Part shown: piece after piece, positions 6,822 through 29,294 of the stretch
How positions within the stretch are numbered: position 1 is the first letter of the stretch
How the letters are laid out: each line of letters starts with the position of its first letter
From: an uncultured Pyrinomonadaceae bacterium
Lineage (GTDB): Bacteria > Acidobacteriota > Blastocatellia > Pyrinomonadales > Pyrinomonadaceae
NCBI GenBank assembly: GCA_902805935.1
Contig: CADCUR010000024.1
Span: forward strand, 1 to 42,329
Length of the DNA: 42,329 nt
Direction: 5' to 3'
Made by a program: the position numbers and the translations under genes
Notes under the pieces: generated by a model
Seen by the model: the letters and a program-made list of their open reading frames with translations, nothing else
The model's database searches: none
Told to the model about the DNA's origin: nothing

Positions 6822-7595
6822 TTACCGGCGAATAAACGAGATATTTCCGCGCTGGTTCGTCACCGAAATAGCCGCGCTTCCGTCGCCCGTTTGTCCGATC
6901 ACGCGACGACCGTCGCCGAATCTCATGCCCGAATTCCCGAAATCACCGAGCGAGATGTTGCGCGTCGAAGGCGCGGTGGCAATCAGTCTGAATGAAGAGT
7001 TAAAAGGAATGCGGATATTGATGTTGCCGCGCACCGAGGTAAAGCGATAACTGCCGCCAGCCTGAATCGTGCCGTCGTAGAAAATATCGCCGATGCCGTT
7101 TTCCGCCGCGACGTTCTCCGCGCTGATGTTGGTCAAAGTAATATCGCCTTCGGTTGAGATGTGAGCGCGAACCAAACCGCCGCGCACGCCGCTGACGGTC
7201 AGATTCCCCATTCGCGTTTCGATGTCAACCGAAGCCGAATAGGGAACTTTAATGAGAAAATTGACGTTGCCGACTTCCGTTTTTCCTTGGTTGTCTTTAA
7301 CAAGATTGATGTCAATCGTGCCGCTCAAACTTCGCGGGGCGATGTTCGCCGCCGGCGCTTCGAGGTAAGCCGAGATGTTGATTTCCTCTCGATCCCAGCC
7401 TTCGACGATGACTTGACCGGTGCGATTCGTCAGTTGCAGGCGGACGTTTTTACTCGCCGGATAAATTCGAGAGAACTTTTTCTGCGCGGAAACTTCCGAA
7501 GCCGCGGCTGAAGAAAACGCAAAGAAAAAAACTACGCTTAAAAGGAGCATCGTAGTTTTATTTTGAGTGAAGAATTTTTTCGTGATCCAATTCAT
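6822..7595 (-). CDS. Secreted DUF4097-type beta-strand-repeat protein (2)
   Basis: A 257-aa exported protein. A Lys/Thr-rich start is followed by a hydrophobic segment (TMLLLSVVFFFAFSSAAA) ending near VSAQ, which is a signal peptide. The mature part has the DUF4097 pattern of short beta strands, e.g. LTNRTGQVIVEGW, VDIETRMGNLTVSGVRGG, GDITLTNIS and FTSVRGNINIRIPF. The VEGW strand is shared with the downstream gene at 5843, so the two are paralogues. It begins 15 nt after the anti-sigma stop, which implies one transcript. Its function is unknown; a role at the cell surface is inferred from the signal peptide. Confidence 0.78.
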   Translation of the reverse strand: MNWITKKFFTQNKTTMLLLSVVFFFAFSSAAASEVSAQKKFSRIYPASKNVRLQLTNRTGQVIVEGWDREEINISAYLEAPAANIAPRSLSGTIDINLVKDNQGKTEVGNVNFLIKVPYSASVDIETRMGNLTVSGVRGGLVRAHISTEGDITLTNISAENVAAENGIGDIFYDGTIQAGGSYRFTSVRGNINIRIPFNSSFRLIATAPSTRNISLGDFGNSGMRFGDGRRVIGQTGDGSAAISVTNQRGNISFIRR

Positions 7596-7610
7596 TTGCT
7601 GTAACCGAGT

Positions 7611-8324
7611 TTATAATTCGGAGAATTCGCGCAGCAGCGCCATTTTTTCGTTGAGCGCCGAATCGAGCATTTCGCCCGAAAGATCGTCGTTCGGATTCTC
7701 CTGCAAAATTTTGTCGTATTCGTAAACCGTCTGGTCAATCTCGCGCAGATTGCGGTCGAACGCCTCGCGCAAATTCGCCGCCCATTTCGCTCGTTTTTCG
7801 CCGACGCGCCGGTTCCAATACTCGATTGCCGTCTGCTGTTCTTTGATGCGGTTTTCTCTGGTTTGCTGCGGCGTTTCAACAAGACCGATTTTTCCGAGCG
7901 CGCGGTCGAAAACGCTCGGCGCAACGTTTCCAGCCGATGCGTCGCCCGCCGAATAGTTTCGGATTCCGACAATCGTCAGCAGCGAGCTAACCAGCGCAAT
8001 TCCGAAAATTGAAGCGAAAACCTGCGCAAAGGAAAACTGCCATCCGCGCTTCGGTTTTTCATCTTTAATTTCTTTGGGAAGTTCAGCGGCGATTTCGGTT
8101 TCGATTAAGTTATTGATGCGGCACCAGAGAGCTTTTGAATTTGGCGGCAGAGTATGTTCAGTTTCGTCGAGATTGCAAAAGTCGAGAATCATTGCGAAGT
8201 CTTCGCACATCTTGGCGCATTCGAGACAAACCGCCAAGTGCGTTCGGATACTCGCCGAAACGTCGGCTTCGAGTTCGTTATCCAGGTAAACGCTGATTAA
8301 TTCTTGACATTGTTCGCAGTTCAT
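7611..8324 (-). CDS. Membrane anti-sigma factor with zinc-finger (zf-HC2)
   Basis: A 237-aa protein probably holding the ECF sigma factor encoded just upstream. Residues 1-40 form the anti-sigma zinc-finger: Cys3/Cys6, then H29-x3-C33-x2-C36 (HLAVCLEC). A single membrane segment follows at about residues 95-120 (FAQVFASIFGIALVSSLLTIVGI). The C-terminal half is charged and probably helical or coiled (RENRIKEQQTAIEYWNRRVGEKRAKW) and should lie outside the membrane as a sensor. It is 125 nt downstream of the sigma gene and 15 nt upstream of the DUF4097 gene. The signal it senses is unknown. Confidence 0.85.
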   Translation of the reverse strand: MNCEQCQELISVYLDNELEADVSASIRTHLAVCLECAKMCEDFAMILDFCNLDETEHTLPPNSKALWCRINNLIETEIAAELPKEIKDEKPKRGWQFSFAQVFASIFGIALVSSLLTIVGIRNYSAGDASAGNVAPSVFDRALGKIGLVETPQQTRENRIKEQQTAIEYWNRRVGEKRAKWAANLREAFDRNLREIDQTVYEYDKILQENPNDDLSGEMLDSALNEKMALLREFSEL

Positions 8325-23165: not shown

Positions 23166-24641
23166 TTAAACTTTTTTCTCTTTCCATTTCCCGCGTTTGA
23201 AAAGAATCGCCGAGACAATCGCCAGCACCGAAAACGCCACGGTTATCGCCCAGAAAACTCCGTCGGGTCCGAGTTTGAAATGATACGACAAAACGTAGGC
23301 GAGCGGAATTTCAAACAGCCAGAAAATGAACAGATTCAAATAGGTCGGCGTCCAGGTGTCGCCCGCGCCGTTGAACGACGATTCCAAAACCATCCCGAAA
23401 GCGTAAAACACAAAACCGTAAGCGACAATGTGCAGACAACTCGTGCCGTAAGCCAGAACGTCCGGCTCGATAGTGAAAAATCCGACGATTGCCTTTGAGA
23501 AAAATAAAAACAGCAAACCGACTGCGCCGAGAACCGCCGCGTTGATAAACGCCGCTTTCCAGACGCTCTTTTCCGCGCGTTCGGGCTTGCCCGCGCCGAG
23601 GTTTTGCCCGACGAGCGTCGCCGCCGCGTTGCTCAAACCGACCGCCGGCAGCAGCGCGAACATAATCACGCGCAAGCCGATGACGTAACCGGCAATCGCC
23701 TCGCTTCCGAAACCGGCGACGACGCGCACGAGCGCGCTCCAGCTCGCCGTCGCAATCGTGAACTGCAAAACGGCGGGCGCGGCGATTTTAACGAGACCCG
23801 AAAAAATTTCCGAGTCAAACTTCCAGTGTTCTTTACGAATCGTGATGCGTCCGCTTTTGCGAATCAAATACCACGCGGCGAATACGACTCCGACGCCGCG
23901 CCCGATGGTCGTGCCGACCGCCGCACCGGTCACGCCGAGTTTCGGAAAAACCCAAACGTCGAGCAACCACTGCGGCGCATTGATATTGAAAAACGCGAAA
24001 ATATCAGGACCGTAAATAAAACACGGCGCGAGAAAAATATTCAAAAGATTTGCCAAAAACAAAACGCGCATCGCAATTGCCGCGTCGCCCGCGCCGCGAA
24101 AAATCGCGTTCAGCAAAAACAGAAAAACGATGACCGCATTGCCGCCGAGCATAATGCGCGTAAACGTTGTGCCTTGTTCGACAACTTGCGGTTCGGCGCC
24201 GAGCAGAGATAAAAACGTGGGCGCGAAAATGATACCGACGACGCTCATCACAACCGAAACGCTCACGCCGAGATAAATCGCGTGCGCCGCCGTTCGCGCC
24301 GCGCCATCCGCATCTTTTTCCCCAGTCCGTCGCGCGACGGTCGCCGTCGCGCCGATACTCAAACCGATGGCGACCGCGTAAACAATTGCCAGCATTGATT
24401 CAGTGAGACCGACAACGGCAACCGCGTCCGCGCCGAGCCTTGCGACAAAGAAAATGTCCACGATGGCGAAAACGCTCTCCATCAGCATTTCCAGAATCAT
24501 CGGAACGCTCAACAAAAAAATCGCCAGTCCGATTGAACCCTGCGTAAAATCGCGCTCGGAACCGGCAACGGCTTCGCGCAAAATTGACCAAAAAGAATTT
24601 TTCTCCGTCCGCACAGACAGATTTTCCGTATTAATAGACAT
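23166..24641 (-). CDS. MATE family efflux transporter
   Basis: A 491-aa integral membrane protein with about 12 hydrophobic segments and the MATE pattern: SVPMILEMLMESVFAIVDIFFVARLGADAVAVVGLTES at the N-terminus, an internal repeat half starting with VKIAAPAVLQFTIATASWSALVRVVAGFGSEAIAGYVIG, and GQNLGAGKPERAEKSVW. MATE proteins export cationic drugs or metabolites using a Na+ or H+ gradient. A charged N-terminal stretch of about 28 residues precedes the first helix. The leader may carry an attenuator. The C-terminus ends KRGKWKEKKV next to the purine repeat. Confidence 0.93.
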   Translation of the reverse strand: MSINTENLSVRTEKNSFWSILREAVAGSERDFTQGSIGLAIFLLSVPMILEMLMESVFAIVDIFFVARLGADAVAVVGLTESMLAIVYAVAIGLSIGATATVARRTGEKDADGAARTAAHAIYLGVSVSVVMSVVGIIFAPTFLSLLGAEPQVVEQGTTFTRIMLGGNAVIVFLFLLNAIFRGAGDAAIAMRVLFLANLLNIFLAPCFIYGPDIFAFFNINAPQWLLDVWVFPKLGVTGAAVGTTIGRGVGVVFAAWYLIRKSGRITIRKEHWKFDSEIFSGLVKIAAPAVLQFTIATASWSALVRVVAGFGSEAIAGYVIGLRVIMFALLPAVGLSNAAATLVGQNLGAGKPERAEKSVWKAAFINAAVLGAVGLLFLFFSKAIVGFFTIEPDVLAYGTSCLHIVAYGFVFYAFGMVLESSFNGAGDTWTPTYLNLFIFWLFEIPLAYVLSYHFKLGPDGVFWAITVAFSVLAIVSAILFKRGKWKEKKV

Positions 24642-24996: not shown

Positions 24997-25683
24997 ATGA
25001 GCGACCACACCTATAATTACGACGAGCAGCAGCCGTTTGCCGCCGCCGAGTTCGCTGAAAATCCCGAGCCGCGCTGTCCATGCGTCCTTCTGCTCGACAC
25101 TTCCGGCTCGATGCAAGGCAACTCGATTGACGAACTCAATCGCGGGCTGCAGGCGTTTCGGGAAGAACTCTACAACGACAGCTTGAGTATGAAGCGCGTC
25201 GAGATTGCCGTCATCACTTTCGGTCCGGTCAGCGTAATGCAGGATTTCACGACCGCCGACAATCTGCGACCCGTCCGGCTCGAAGCCGCCGGAGACACGC
25301 CGCTCGGCGCAGCAGTCGGGCGCGGATTAACTTTGCTCAAACAGCGCAAAGAGATTTTGCGCTCGAACGGCATCAAGCTTTTTCGCCCGTGGATTTTTCT
25401 GCTGACCGACGGCGCGCCAACCGACCGATGGCAGCATTTGCCGCCGATTATCCGCGCGGGCGAGGAAAACAAATCGTTTTCGTTTTTCGCGCTCGGCGTT
25501 AAAGACGCGGATTTTACGGTTTTAAAACAAATCGCCGTGCGCGAGCCGATGCGTCTCGAAGGCGTGCGCTTTAAGGAATTTTTCCTGTGGCTGTCGGCGT
25601 CCCTGAAAAACGTTTCGCGGTCGAATCCGGGCGATAAAGTTTCGATTCCCGATTACAAACCATACGGTTGGGCGGACGTTTAA
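24997..25683 (+). CDS. VWA-domain protein of a kinase/phosphatase triad (YegL/TerY-like)
   Basis: A 228-aa cytoplasmic protein that is almost entirely a von Willebrand A domain. The MIDAS motif is D34-T-S-G-S (LLLDTSGSM), followed by the TPLGAAVGRGL Thr and the LLTDGAPTD Asp. Similar stand-alone VWA proteins (E. coli YegL and the TerY group) are encoded with a PP2C phosphatase and an unusual kinase, exactly the arrangement here. Its TAA overlaps the ATG of the phosphatase gene (TAATG), implying translational coupling. Its binding partner is likely the kinase or its target, which is inference. Confidence 0.9.
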   Translation: MSDHTYNYDEQQPFAAAEFAENPEPRCPCVLLLDTSGSMQGNSIDELNRGLQAFREELYNDSLSMKRVEIAVITFGPVSVMQDFTTADNLRPVRLEAAGDTPLGAAVGRGLTLLKQRKEILRSNGIKLFRPWIFLLTDGAPTDRWQHLPPIIRAGEENKSFSFFALGVKDADFTVLKQIAVREPMRLEGVRFKEFFLWLSASLKNVSRSNPGDKVSIPDYKPYGWADV

Positions 25684-26468
25684 TGAACTTTTCGGGAAAA
25701 TGGCGTTACGCTCGGGCATCCGTCATCGGGTTGGCGCATCTCAATCAGCAAACCGAATGTCAGGATAGACTCGCGTGCCGCGCGATTGAAACAAAGGCGG
25801 ACGGCGAAGTTTTAATCGCAGCAATTGCCGACGGCGCGGGCAGCACGACAGACGGACAGACGGGCGCAGAAATCGCCTGCGAGTTTTTTGCCAATCAGGT
25901 TGAAGATTTTTTGAAATCGAGCAACGCTTCGGTAAGTTCTTTGAACGAAGATTTCGGCAAACGATGGATTGAATTTTTTCAAGCGCGGATCGCCGAGATT
26001 GCGCGAGAGAATAAAAAGGAAATGCGCGATTACGCCTCGACGCTTGTCGCGGCTGTTATCGGCAAAACCGGTGCAGCGTTTTATCAAGTCGGCGACGGCG
26101 GCGCGGTTTACTCCGCCGACGGAAAATCCGAAAGCTACCGATTCGCCGTCGAACCGAACGAATCGGAATACGTGAATATGACCGAATTTTTGACGGACGA
26201 CGCGGCAGCAGACAGCCTGCGGTTTCGATTCATTGAATCGGCGATTGAAGATTTGATTTTATTTTCCGACGGCATTTTCGCCGTCGCCGTTAATTATCAA
26301 ACGAATCAGCCGCACGAGCCGTTTTTGATGCCGATGATAGCGCCGCTCAGAAGCGGAACCGCAGCAAACAATTTGAATGAAAAACTGGAAAAATTTCTTG
26401 CGTCACCTAAATTGAACGAGAAAACCGATGACGACAAAACGATAATTTTAGCTTCGCGGCACGCATAA
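25683..26468 (+). CDS. PP2C-type Ser/Thr protein phosphatase (PphC/YegK-like)
   Basis: A 261-aa soluble phosphatase. PP2C metal-binding motifs are visible: IAAIADGAGSTTDGQTGAEIAC (Asp50-Gly51), then LILFSDGIFAVA, and the terminal KTDDDKTIILA. It should dephosphorylate proteins modified by the kinase encoded next. The frame begins at 25668, but the ATG at 25683 is preferred because it overlaps the VWA stop codon by one base and starts with the family-like MNFSGKWRYARASVIGLAHL. A 75-nt gap with a 10-bp inverted repeat (26476-26505) separates it from the kinase gene. Confidence 0.92.
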   Translation: MNFSGKWRYARASVIGLAHLNQQTECQDRLACRAIETKADGEVLIAAIADGAGSTTDGQTGAEIACEFFANQVEDFLKSSNASVSSLNEDFGKRWIEFFQARIAEIARENKKEMRDYASTLVAAVIGKTGAAFYQVGDGGAVYSADGKSESYRFAVEPNESEYVNMTEFLTDDAAADSLRFRFIESAIEDLILFSDGIFAVAVNYQTNQPHEPFLMPMIAPLRSGTAANNLNEKLEKFLASPKLNEKTDDDKTIILASRHA

Positions 26469-26543
26469 GTTTTAGGTTTCAAGTTGTAGAGCAAAAACTT
26501 GAAACTTCAAACTGGACACTTAAAACCTTTAAAACTTAAATTT

Positions 26544-29294
26544 ATGCCCACGTATTACGACAGCCAAAACAACGCTCACGTTTTGAACGAACGCATCGGA
26601 AGCGGCGGCGAAGGCGCGGTTTTTTTCTGCGGCGAAGATTTCAAAACGGTCGCCAAAATTTATCACGAGCCAATTTCCGAAGAGAAAGCCGAGAAGCTGC
26701 GCTGGATGGCGGCGCATAAAAACGACCGATTATTAAAAGTCGCGGCTTGGGTCGTTGACGTTTTGACCGACGCGCCCGGCGGAACAGTGGTCGGCTTTTT
26801 GATGCCGAGCGTCAAAGCCAAAGAGATTCACGAGCTTTATTCGCTGAAAAGCCGCCGCGTTTATTTTCCCGAAGCGACCTGGCATTTTCTCGTCCACACG
26901 GCGGCGAACGTCGCGCGCGCTTTTTACAATCTGCACTGCGGCGACCACGTAATGGGCGACGTCAATCACGGCAACTGCGTCGTTCTGGCGGACGGCACGG
27001 TGAAATTGATTGACTGCGACAGCTACAGCATCCGCACCGATAAAATGCGTTACCCGTGCGAAGTCGGCGTGGCGACGCATCTCGCGCCCGAATTGCAGGG
27101 CGCGAATCTGCGCGATGTCGAGCGCCTCGCCAATCACGACAATTTCGGTCTCGCCGTGATAATTTTTCAACTGCTTTTTTTGGGCAGACATCCGTTTGCG
27201 GGAAATTATCTCGGCGGCGAAGACAAATCAATCGAAGACTGCATCCGCGAGTATCGTTTCGCTTACGGAGACAACGCCGCCCTCAAAAACGTCCGGCAAC
27301 CGCCCGGAACTTTGCCGCTCGATGCCGTTAGCCCGCGCGTCGCGCTGATGTTTGAACGCGCGTTTATAACTGAAGCCCGACCCGAACCGCGCGAGTGGAT
27401 CGAAGCGCTCGAAGATTTGGCGAACAGTTTGGAGCAGTGCGCTTTGCATCCGGGACATCTTTATTTCAACCGTTTGGCGGCGTGTCCGTGGTGCGAAATC
27501 GAAGCGCAGACCGGCTTGATGCTATTTCCGTTCGTCACCGCCGGCGCGCATCCGGGCGGTGAAAAACCGTTTAATATCTTTACGGTCGAAAATTTAATCG
27601 CCAATCTCGGCATCTCGAACGCGCTGCCCGCTAAACCGCCGCCGGTCGCCGCGCCGCTGCCGCCGACGGCTGAAGTCGTCGAGGCGAAAAGAGAAAATCG
27701 AAAAAAGACGACTATCAGTTTGATTGTCCAGTTTTTCGGATTGATTTTTTTGATGGCGGTTTTAGGCGTCGGCGTCGCCGCCTTTTTCGGAATGTGTGCG
27801 CTGATTGTCTGGCTGTTTTACACAAACAACTCGGTCAAATATCTGCGCGAAGAACTCGAAGAGAATCTCTCGGACGCGCAGCAGAAATGGGCGGCGTTAG
27901 AGAACGAATGGGCGCGCAACCCTCTGCCGAAACTCGACGACGATTTATCAAGCGTCAAAAAGAAAATCGCCGAATATCAAAAATTTCAACAAACCAGCGT
28001 GCGGCGGGCGAAACATTTGCGCGAAGCCGACGCGCGTCGCCGGCAGCACGCGCATCTGCGTTCGGCGCGGCTCGCCGACGCGGAAATTTCCGGCATCAGG
28101 GAAAAACAAATTCGCATTTTGCTCGATAACAATTTTGAAACGGCGGCGGATATGGACAGCGGTCGGCTGCGTTACCTGCCGGAAATCGGCGCACGGACGA
28201 TTGCCAAACTGCTCGACTGGCGCAGGGAAATCGAAACGAATTTCAATGCCGAACCCGACGAAGATAATTTGAGAGAAGAACAAATGAAGCTCGCCGTCGA
28301 AGCGGCGGGCGAGCGGCGGCGCATCGAACGGGAAATCGAAAATTCGCTTATTTCCCTGCGTTCCGGCGCGGTCTATCTGCGCCGCCGCGGCGCGGAACTT
28401 TCAAAACAGGCGGCGGAACTCGCCAGCCGTCTCGCGCAGACGAAAAGCGACGCCAAGCATCTCGGCACAAATTCTCCGGCAATCGTCGGCTTGATTTTGA
28501 TTACGTTTCTAACGCCGTATTTCGGATTTATCGTCCTACAGATAAACCACTCGCGAACGGTTTCGTTGCACAACCGTAGCGGTTATGGCACGACTGCCGC
28601 TGCACCTCCGCTGCCGAAATCGGGTGCCGCTTATCCGAAAGTTGAATATAACCTTCCGAAAGAAGACTACGCCGACCTGGAAATCGCTATCATGCCCGAC
28701 GCGACGCGCACCGAATACGCGGAAAATCTGTTGGCGCAAACTTCGCAGTTTACATATGAAACCCCTGATTATAAGAGAGACGAGCGGAAAATGCGGCTGG
28801 CAATTCGCTTACAGCCGAACGATACACGCTTTCTGAATCAACTCGGTTACGCTTTATACGAGCAGCAAACATACAATGAATCGCTCAAATATTTAAACCG
28901 TTCTTTGAAGATTGAAAGCGAAAACAGCGAAACTAAAATTTTCATCGGCATCAATTATTTGCGTATGGAACGATTCAAAGACGCCCGACAAATTCTCACC
29001 GAAGTAACCGACCGCTACGATTCTTCGTTTGAAGGTTTCTACAATCTCGGTTTGGCGCACAGCGGGCTGAAACATTACGCGGCGGCGATTGCGGCGTTGC
29101 GGCGGGCGGCTGAAATCAATCCGGGCGACGCGGACACGCGCTATCAACTCGGCTACTGTTTTTACAAATCAGGCGAGACAGACAAAGCCTACAAGCAGTA
29201 TGAAATTTTGCTCGGTCTCGACAAGACGATGGCGGATAAATTATACAAAGAAGCTAAAATCGTTCCGCGAAAAGTCATTGTCGAATCGAAATAA
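26544..29294 (+). CDS. YegI-like protein kinase with HhH, three membrane segments and TPRs
   Basis: A 916-aa multidomain protein from the ATG at 26544 (a start at 26499 would add an atypical leader). Residues 15-290 are a divergent kinase: Gly-rich GSGGEG (19-24), Lys38 (VAKIY), catalytic GDVNHGN (138-144) and metal-binding DCD (157-159). A Cys/His segment (LHPGHLYFNRLAACPWC) follows. Two adjacent membrane helices lie at about 391-427, then a coiled coil and a helix-hairpin-helix (about 517-565, LRYLPEIGARTIAKLLDWR). A third membrane helix is at about 645-667, then about three TPRs to the end. Kinase plus HhH matches E. coli YegI (COG4248 type). The C-terminal membrane/TPR part is an addition not present in the short E. 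coli protein. Confidence 0.88.
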   Translation: MPTYYDSQNNAHVLNERIGSGGEGAVFFCGEDFKTVAKIYHEPISEEKAEKLRWMAAHKNDRLLKVAAWVVDVLTDAPGGTVVGFLMPSVKAKEIHELYSLKSRRVYFPEATWHFLVHTAANVARAFYNLHCGDHVMGDVNHGNCVVLADGTVKLIDCDSYSIRTDKMRYPCEVGVATHLAPELQGANLRDVERLANHDNFGLAVIIFQLLFLGRHPFAGNYLGGEDKSIEDCIREYRFAYGDNAALKNVRQPPGTLPLDAVSPRVALMFERAFITEARPEPREWIEALEDLANSLEQCALHPGHLYFNRLAACPWCEIEAQTGLMLFPFVTAGAHPGGEKPFNIFTVENLIANLGISNALPAKPPPVAAPLPPTAEVVEAKRENRKKTTISLIVQFFGLIFLMAVLGVGVAAFFGMCALIVWLFYTNNSVKYLREELEENLSDAQQKWAALENEWARNPLPKLDDDLSSVKKKIAEYQKFQQTSVRRAKHLREADARRRQHAHLRSARLADAEISGIREKQIRILLDNNFETAADMDSGRLRYLPEIGARTIAKLLDWRREIETNFNAEPDEDNLREEQMKLAVEAAGERRRIEREIENSLISLRSGAVYLRRRGAELSKQAAELASRLAQTKSDAKHLGTNSPAIVGLILITFLTPYFGFIVLQINHSRTVSLHNRSGYGTTAAAPPLPKSGAAYPKVEYNLPKEDYADLEIAIMPDATRTEYAENLLAQTSQFTYETPDYKRDERKMRLAIRLQPNDTRFLNQLGYALYEQQTYNESLKYLNRSLKIESENSETKIFIGINYLRMERFKDARQILTEVTDRYDSSFEGFYNLGLAHSGLKHYAAAIAALRRAAEINPGDADTRYQLGYCFYKSGETDKAYKQYEILLGLDKTMADKLYKEAKIVPRKVIVESK

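Follow-up and report, generated by a model that had tools for sequence, protein, structure and literature searches.

The question raised by this locus is what a YegI-type kinase does with a third membrane helix and a TPR domain, neither of which is present in E. coli YegI. The locus lies in a window of 42,329 nucleotides, the whole stretch of DNA that was analysed, from an uncultured Pyrinomonadaceae bacterium (class Blastocatellia; GCA_902805935.1, contig CADCUR010000024.1), whose assembly of 3.87 Mb is about 90% complete. At positions 24997-29294, three co-oriented genes, like all their features given below on the plus strand, code for a YegL-type VWA protein of 228 amino acids (aa; 24997..25683, Pfam VWA E = 4.9e-08), a PphC-type PP2C phosphatase of 261 aa (25683..26468, PP2C_2 E = 1.1e-43) and a YegI-type kinase of 916 aa that carries the extension (26544..29294). 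The initial annotation had recognized the yegL/pphC/yegI arrangement in them, and this assignment held: across 219 aligned positions the VWA protein shares 55% identity with YegL of E. coli, the phosphatase shares 32% with PphC, and residues 5-636 of the kinase align with residues 8-644 of the 648 of YegI at 29% identity. By alignment, the three genes are orthologues of yegL, pphC and yegI, and they stand in matching order; in E. coli K-12, pphC and yegI are separated by yegJ, which is encoded on the opposite strand. The proposed coupling of the first two genes was also borne out, the TAA stop codon of the VWA gene and the ATG of the PP2C gene overlapping by one nucleotide (TAATG), and the kinase ATG at 26544 lies 75 nt past the PP2C stop, with homologues starting at the equal residue.

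Both kinases consist of a kinase domain, a Cys/His motif, a transmembrane hairpin, a helical arm, an HhH-like tip and a second arm, so that, judged from the homologues, the kinase, the membrane hairpin, the arms and the HhH belong to the usual make-up of YegI and the new part comprises helix 3, a linker and the TPRs only. Whereas YegI, with 648 aa, stops at the end of arm 2 and has no helix 3 and no TPR, the window kinase continues for 349 residues beyond the conserved F567 and thus does not end there. The first added element is the predicted membrane helix 3 (approximately aa 646-668, 28479..28547; Kyte-Doolittle hydropathy (KD) 2.36), which is missing in standard YegI. It is followed by a linker (aa 669-742, 28548..28769) rich in S, A, E, T, P and N, which is mostly disordered (predicted local distance difference test (pLDDT) below 50 at 638-705) with predicted helices from residue 711, and by the TPR domain (aa 743-892, 28770..29219), modelled with a pLDDT of 80-97 per ten residues. 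Pfam TPR families match approximately residues 735-900 with E-values down to 1.2e-13, and a Foldseek search found the domain to resemble MamA (4xi0, 5lfl and 5lfm; template modelling score 0.87-0.89 by target length).

To what extent this architecture is shared was read from a core profile run over 162 genomes of the class, which gave 20 matches at E <= 1e-40, 16 of them covering the whole core. Helix 3 and a C-terminal extension were present in all 16, with an open frame at identities down to 29%, and 15 had a Pfam TPR call. The 25 homologues from outside the class, all with full or nearly full cores, comprised one from a different group within the own phylum, 5, 2 and 16 taken from the phyla around a Burkholderiales, a Gemmatimonadetes and an Armatimonadetes genome, respectively, and E. 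coli YegI, sampling having covered the own phylum and three others; rows that were kinase-only or cut by a contig end (L061-L065, L068, L069, L074, L092-L104 and L117) and further matches without an assigned locus were left out before the count. None of these 25 showed a TPR call or a helix-3-like segment after arm 2: 18 terminate 65-81 residues past the equivalent phenylalanine, and the other seven have tails of 89-163 residues past it without helix 3 (score <= 1.15). Likewise, six plasmid copies (638-719 aa; 6 of the 48 matching plasmid records) gave no match to the profile of the TPR or of the extension. Counted from F567, helix 3 begins at a distance of 76-82 residues in all 16 class homologues, and since this spacing coincides with most chain ends outside the class, the helix appears to have been added where the arm 2 of the family stops. 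The initial annotation would have counted its reading as refuted if the C-terminal part were standard for the family; this part is the standard architecture within the class but absent from the outside and plasmid homologues. Taken over the genomes compared, the helix 3-TPR extension marks a form of a known triad that is particular to this lineage.

How often the extension arose is left unsettled by a quick tree, which needs three changes and groups L023 (TPR-bearing) with L078 and L079, while one clade for the 16 class members was not rejected (approximately unbiased test, p-AU 0.229). A TPR gene split off beside the outside kinases was also looked for: L130 has one 1.8 kb downstream and L136 one at a distance of 6.3 kb, and as none was seen elsewhere in the stretches examined, a general fission was rejected. 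An unannotated faecal phage contig, record MT836238.1, holds at positions 6874-7854 a sequence related to the kinase domain with 28.7% identity and E = 2e-19.

The three hydrophobic segments pointed out by the initial annotation, a double block at 389-431 and the segment at approximately 646-668, look like membrane helices across the 16 class homologues. The double block holds 43 residues without charge and has a glycine turn at its centre, which argues for two helices, not one: helix 1 (approximately aa 389-407, 27708..27764), placed by hydropathy and a low-confidence model helix at 376-406, and helix 2 (approximately aa 411-430, 27774..27833), placed by the charge-free block with its GxG turn and a break in the model helix at 407-410. 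The first block spans 40-48 residues without charge in 11 of the 16 class members, often with a central GxG or GPG, and is shorter or interrupted by charge in the remaining five. The net charge ahead of the hairpin, on average +2.4 in the class homologues, fits a cytoplasmic kinase, and the parity of the segments together with the placement of helix 3 favours TPRs outside. A fourth stretch above the hydropathy threshold used for these (201-219, score 1.56) was rejected as a membrane helix, as it belongs to the kinase domain.

Between hairpin and helix 3, the chain is predicted to form a stalk made up of arm 1 (aa 431-507, 27834..28064, from AlphaFold models), the HhH-like tip (aa 513-567, 28080..28244; model pLDDT 89-95), which aligns to the HHH_5 region of YegI, and arm 2 (aa 573-645, 28260..28478). 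In both AlphaFold models, arm 2 continues unbroken into helix 3 as one helix from 573 to 670, and long helices flank a compact tip, with a pLDDT of 80-95 over approximately residues 440-629 in the second model. Pfam did not call an HhH in the window kinase and called HHH_5 in 2 of the 16 class homologues; the HHH_5 of YegI is itself below the Pfam cut-off, and the HhH of the window kinase is assigned from the YegI alignment and the model. Helix 2 and F567 are 139-142 residues apart in 11 of the 16 class homologues, and the distance to the conserved phenylalanine is 132-146 residues in 24 of the 25 outside homologues and 118 in L082, in which the helices are unclear. A single fixed stalk length, with arm 1 counted at 87-88 and arm 2 at 79 residues in every class homologue, was discarded because the arm 1 figure depended on gap placement; the constancy of arm 2 was kept.

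Observed are the gene content and order, the orthology, the conserved catalytic residues, the extension with its distribution and the nearly constant length of arm 2. We infer a membrane side for the TPRs, antiparallel arms, sensing by the TPRs, a direction of signalling and a role for the VWA protein, and the resulting proposal, a triad with a cytoplasmic kinase and stalk and an envelope-side TPR domain sensing through helix 3, is one to which we give somewhat better than an even chance. The kinase domain would be cytoplasmic and anchored by the transmembrane hairpin, from which two long helical arms would reach into the cytoplasm, bear the HhH-like tip and come back to the membrane. There the chain, which in standard YegI stops before this point, would cross again as helix 3 and carry the tethered TPR domain outside, where the TPRs would engage a protein or a peptide of the cell envelope as their partner. 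Their binding state would be relayed through helix 3 and the stalk to the kinase and change its autophosphorylation, the PphC-type phosphatase would reset the kinase, and the YegL-type VWA protein would bind kinase, phosphatase or their substrate via its metal site. According to a published description, YegI itself is a membrane kinase whose autophosphorylation occurs on serine and which PphC dephosphorylates (PMC13232886).

The initial annotation had regarded a membrane-spanning kinase of this kind as undescribed. This did not hold in general: according to the available part of its description, PknS of Xanthomonas citri has a cytoplasmic kinase, a transmembrane helix and a periplasmic TPR domain (PMC13147305), so that a membrane kinase with periplasmic TPRs is already known in principle. 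Within the YegI family we found no description of a TPR-extended member in the open-licence literature, and there the form appears to be new. As far as the same excerpt goes, PknS lacking the TPR domain is phosphorylated without stimulus while the full protein is not, and truncated forms fail to complement (PMC13147305), which indicates that a periplasmic TPR domain can restrain a membrane kinase. By analogy, the most likely task of the TPRs of the window kinase is to engage a partner in the envelope and to adjust kinase activity through helix 3 and the stalk. PknS differs in being a canonical Hanks-type kinase with one predicted transmembrane helix and the sigma factor EcfK as target, and the excerpt mentions no HhH stalk and no VWA or PP2C partners (PMC13147305).

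Several points weigh against the proposed topology and signalling. The membrane segments were modelled with low confidence (pLDDT below 50 over 321-412, 424-434 and 638-705), and the second one is unclear in 3 of the 25 outside homologues (L078, L079 and L082); judged from these rows, the hairpin is typical of YegI-type kinases rather than strict and the anchor is not universal. Arm 1 varies in length, with 153-163 residues from helix 2 to F567 in 5 of the 16 class homologues, and the hydrophobicity of the arms peaks at 3.6-3.7 residues instead of the 3.5 expected of a classical coiled coil. A Foldseek search with the stalk gave no significant match at E <= 0.001 (best E 0.057), the weak matches including the coiled coils of the dynein stalk, Rad50 and Smc. 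One class homologue, taken as L116 and with a shorter tail, lacks a Pfam TPR call; a local TPR profile matches it (5e-23 on L143), but L116 helped to build that profile. PknS belongs to a different kinase branch, was likened by description, and serves as an analogy only. Finally, a proline and a glycine often occur in helix 3, which makes a re-entrant loop possible, and its flanks are nearly equal in charge (mean K+R 2.2 before and 1.8 after; net -0.56 and +0.31), so that the flanking charges do not decide the side of the TPRs.

These last two features would suit a kinase with cytoplasmic TPRs, in which helix 3 is re-entrant or in-plane, or the first block crosses once, and the TPRs act as a scaffold bringing in cytosolic substrates or the PphC and YegL partners; TPR-bearing bacterial kinases have been discussed, in the available part of one source, as binders of chaperones or substrates (PMC1262709). 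We consider this arrangement unlikely, though a serious contender, since helix 3 is strongly hydrophobic in all 16 class homologues (KD 1.82-2.72) and is followed by a disordered tether, the uncharged first block of most class members is too long for one helix, and a single crossing of that block would put the HhH outside. It is also conceivable, and in our estimate rather improbable, that the TPR domain localizes the kinase at an envelope site and is not a sensor; TPRs bind proteins, and the closest structural likeness, MamA, is presumably a magnetosome scaffold. That the protein is a YegI of the ordinary kind, its tail fused on by accident or decaying and in either case functionless, would agree with the patchy occurrence of the kinase, which is absent from all eight other genomes of the window's genus (71-95% complete); the retention of the extension in every full-core class homologue with an open frame, even at the lowest identities, contradicts an accidental tail and makes this explanation extremely improbable.

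The tip of the stalk differs between homologues with and without the extension, at glycines that are typical of HhH hairpins. Glycine occupies position 519 in 21 of the 25 outside homologues versus 7 of the 16 class members (R in the window kinase) and position 547 in 23 of 25 versus 4 of 16 (E in the window kinase), while position 517 shows no comparable loss (12 of 16 in the class versus 17 of 25 outside), so that erosion is uneven. The 16 class members are related and the loss may be a single event. On the assumption that the HhH of YegI binds nucleic acid, it is a hint that homologues with the TPR have a tip less tied to this ligand. A bolder version, which we put forward tentatively and think improbable, is that the class turned YegI from an inward device into an outward receptor: the inward form would have an HhH tip suited to nucleic acid on a stalk of approximately 12 nm, a length derived from about 80 residues of helix, and in the outward form helix 3 would have been added where the stalk meets the membrane, with a periplasmic TPR and HhH glycines eroded in much of the class, the stalk, with both feet in the membrane, serving as a lever through which the kinase would sense whether the TPRs are occupied.

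A probable envelope-side binding domain on a natural form of YegI may serve as bait for the missing signal of YegI-type kinases, and the extended form would give a model of how a shared stalk controls the kinase. The kinase type is modular: it occurs with the HhH stalk alone, with the helix 3-TPR extension or with a topoisomerase-type zinc ribbon, and a branch matching over the kinase only carries WD40 propellers. A topoisomerase-type C4 zinc ribbon was called by Pfam in 2 of the 25 outside rows (likely L072 and L073, by C-terminal sequence) and is annotated in L152. C-terminal WD40 propellers were seen in the kinase-only relatives L053, L117, L092, L093, L097 and L100, L053 lying in a VWA-PP2C-kinase triad.

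Comparable gene sets are known from other systems. The TerY-P triad (Anantharaman et al. 2012) reportedly combines vWA, PP2C and kinase and is tied to Ter genes. The one ter family searched for, TerD, gave no match in the window's assembly with its completeness of about 90%. In the available part of a study of actinobacterial GAP1-N2 neighbourhoods, a PP2C and a stand-alone vWA similarly accompany an active kinase, in which transmembrane helices or a zinc ribbon are frequent; that kinase differs in being tied to GAP1-N2 GTPases, and no HhH stalk or TPR is mentioned there (PMC7159879). The PASTA kinases PrkC and PknB, as cited in the accessible part of the PknS study, likewise have the kinase inside and the sensor outside (PMC13147305). 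As a candidate defence system the triad was rejected, PADLOC matches being weak and confined to the kinase or TPR parts. PrkC and PknB differ from the window kinase in bearing PASTA instead of TPR domains and in belonging to another kinase branch.

The kinase domain (aa 1-298, 26544..27437; Pkinase E = 1.6e-06) scores 28.1 bits, slightly below the Pfam cut-off of 31.7 bits, in agreement with the earlier description of the kinase as divergent. In the alignment of the 41 homologues (16 from the class and 25 from outside), K38, D139, D157, D159 and D199 are identical in all, and N144 in 33. The motif C299-H305-C314-C317 (aa 299-317, 27438..27494), a candidate metal site, is also identical in 41 of 41 and likely forms a zinc site between kinase and hairpin. 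Searches of solved structures at E <= 0.001 returned no match for the VWA or PP2C protein, and the kinase core matched distant kinases only.

The partner proteins retain the residues expected of their families. In the VWA protein, D34-S36-S38, T101 and D138, which we take to form a MIDAS-like (metal ion-dependent adhesion site) metal site, are invariant in the 14 rows of an alignment including homologues, and in the phosphatase D28, D50-G51, D138-G139, D196-G197 and D249-D251, the aspartates presumably being the functional ones, are invariant in 15 rows. An R-C-P-C motif (VWA aa 26-29, window 25072-25083) just ahead of the D-x-S-x-S is invariant in all 14 rows, YegL included, and has a putative metal or redox role. 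The VWA protein is 76-84% identical to its counterparts in nine relatives of the same family (L040-L048), compared with 62-71% in the case of the phosphatase and 43-53% in that of the kinase, and because it is better conserved than both, it probably contacts a conserved partner.

The order VWA-PP2C-kinase was found at 14 of the 16 class loci, the exceptions being a contig that holds the kinase alone and a locus without a VWA gene, and at 20 of the 25 outside loci, where three have the kinase alone in 10-17 kb and two lie near a contig end; as both order and architecture are conserved in relatives, the locus is not a chance assembly. Upstream of the triad, on the opposite strand, lies a MatE transporter gene (window 23166-24641, by Pfam), and downstream, also on the opposite strand, genes for a Clp-type ATPase and a ClpS adaptor. 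Among 15 class loci, a MatE-type gene adjoins the triad only in the window and in G045 (L048, 11633-13057), and a gene that from its motifs we take to be NAD-kinase-like lies divergently upstream in eight. A conserved fourth operon member was sought among these and rejected, both genes reflecting synteny, not partnership. Further afield, the triad of the Sinorhizobium plasmid locus L150 follows hxsB, hxsC and hxsA of a His-Xaa-Ser radical SAM system in the same orientation, an annotated J-domain protein is encoded near the triad on the opposite strand of the Cupriavidus plasmid locus L148, and in E. coli the HSP70-family gene yegD adjoins yegI.

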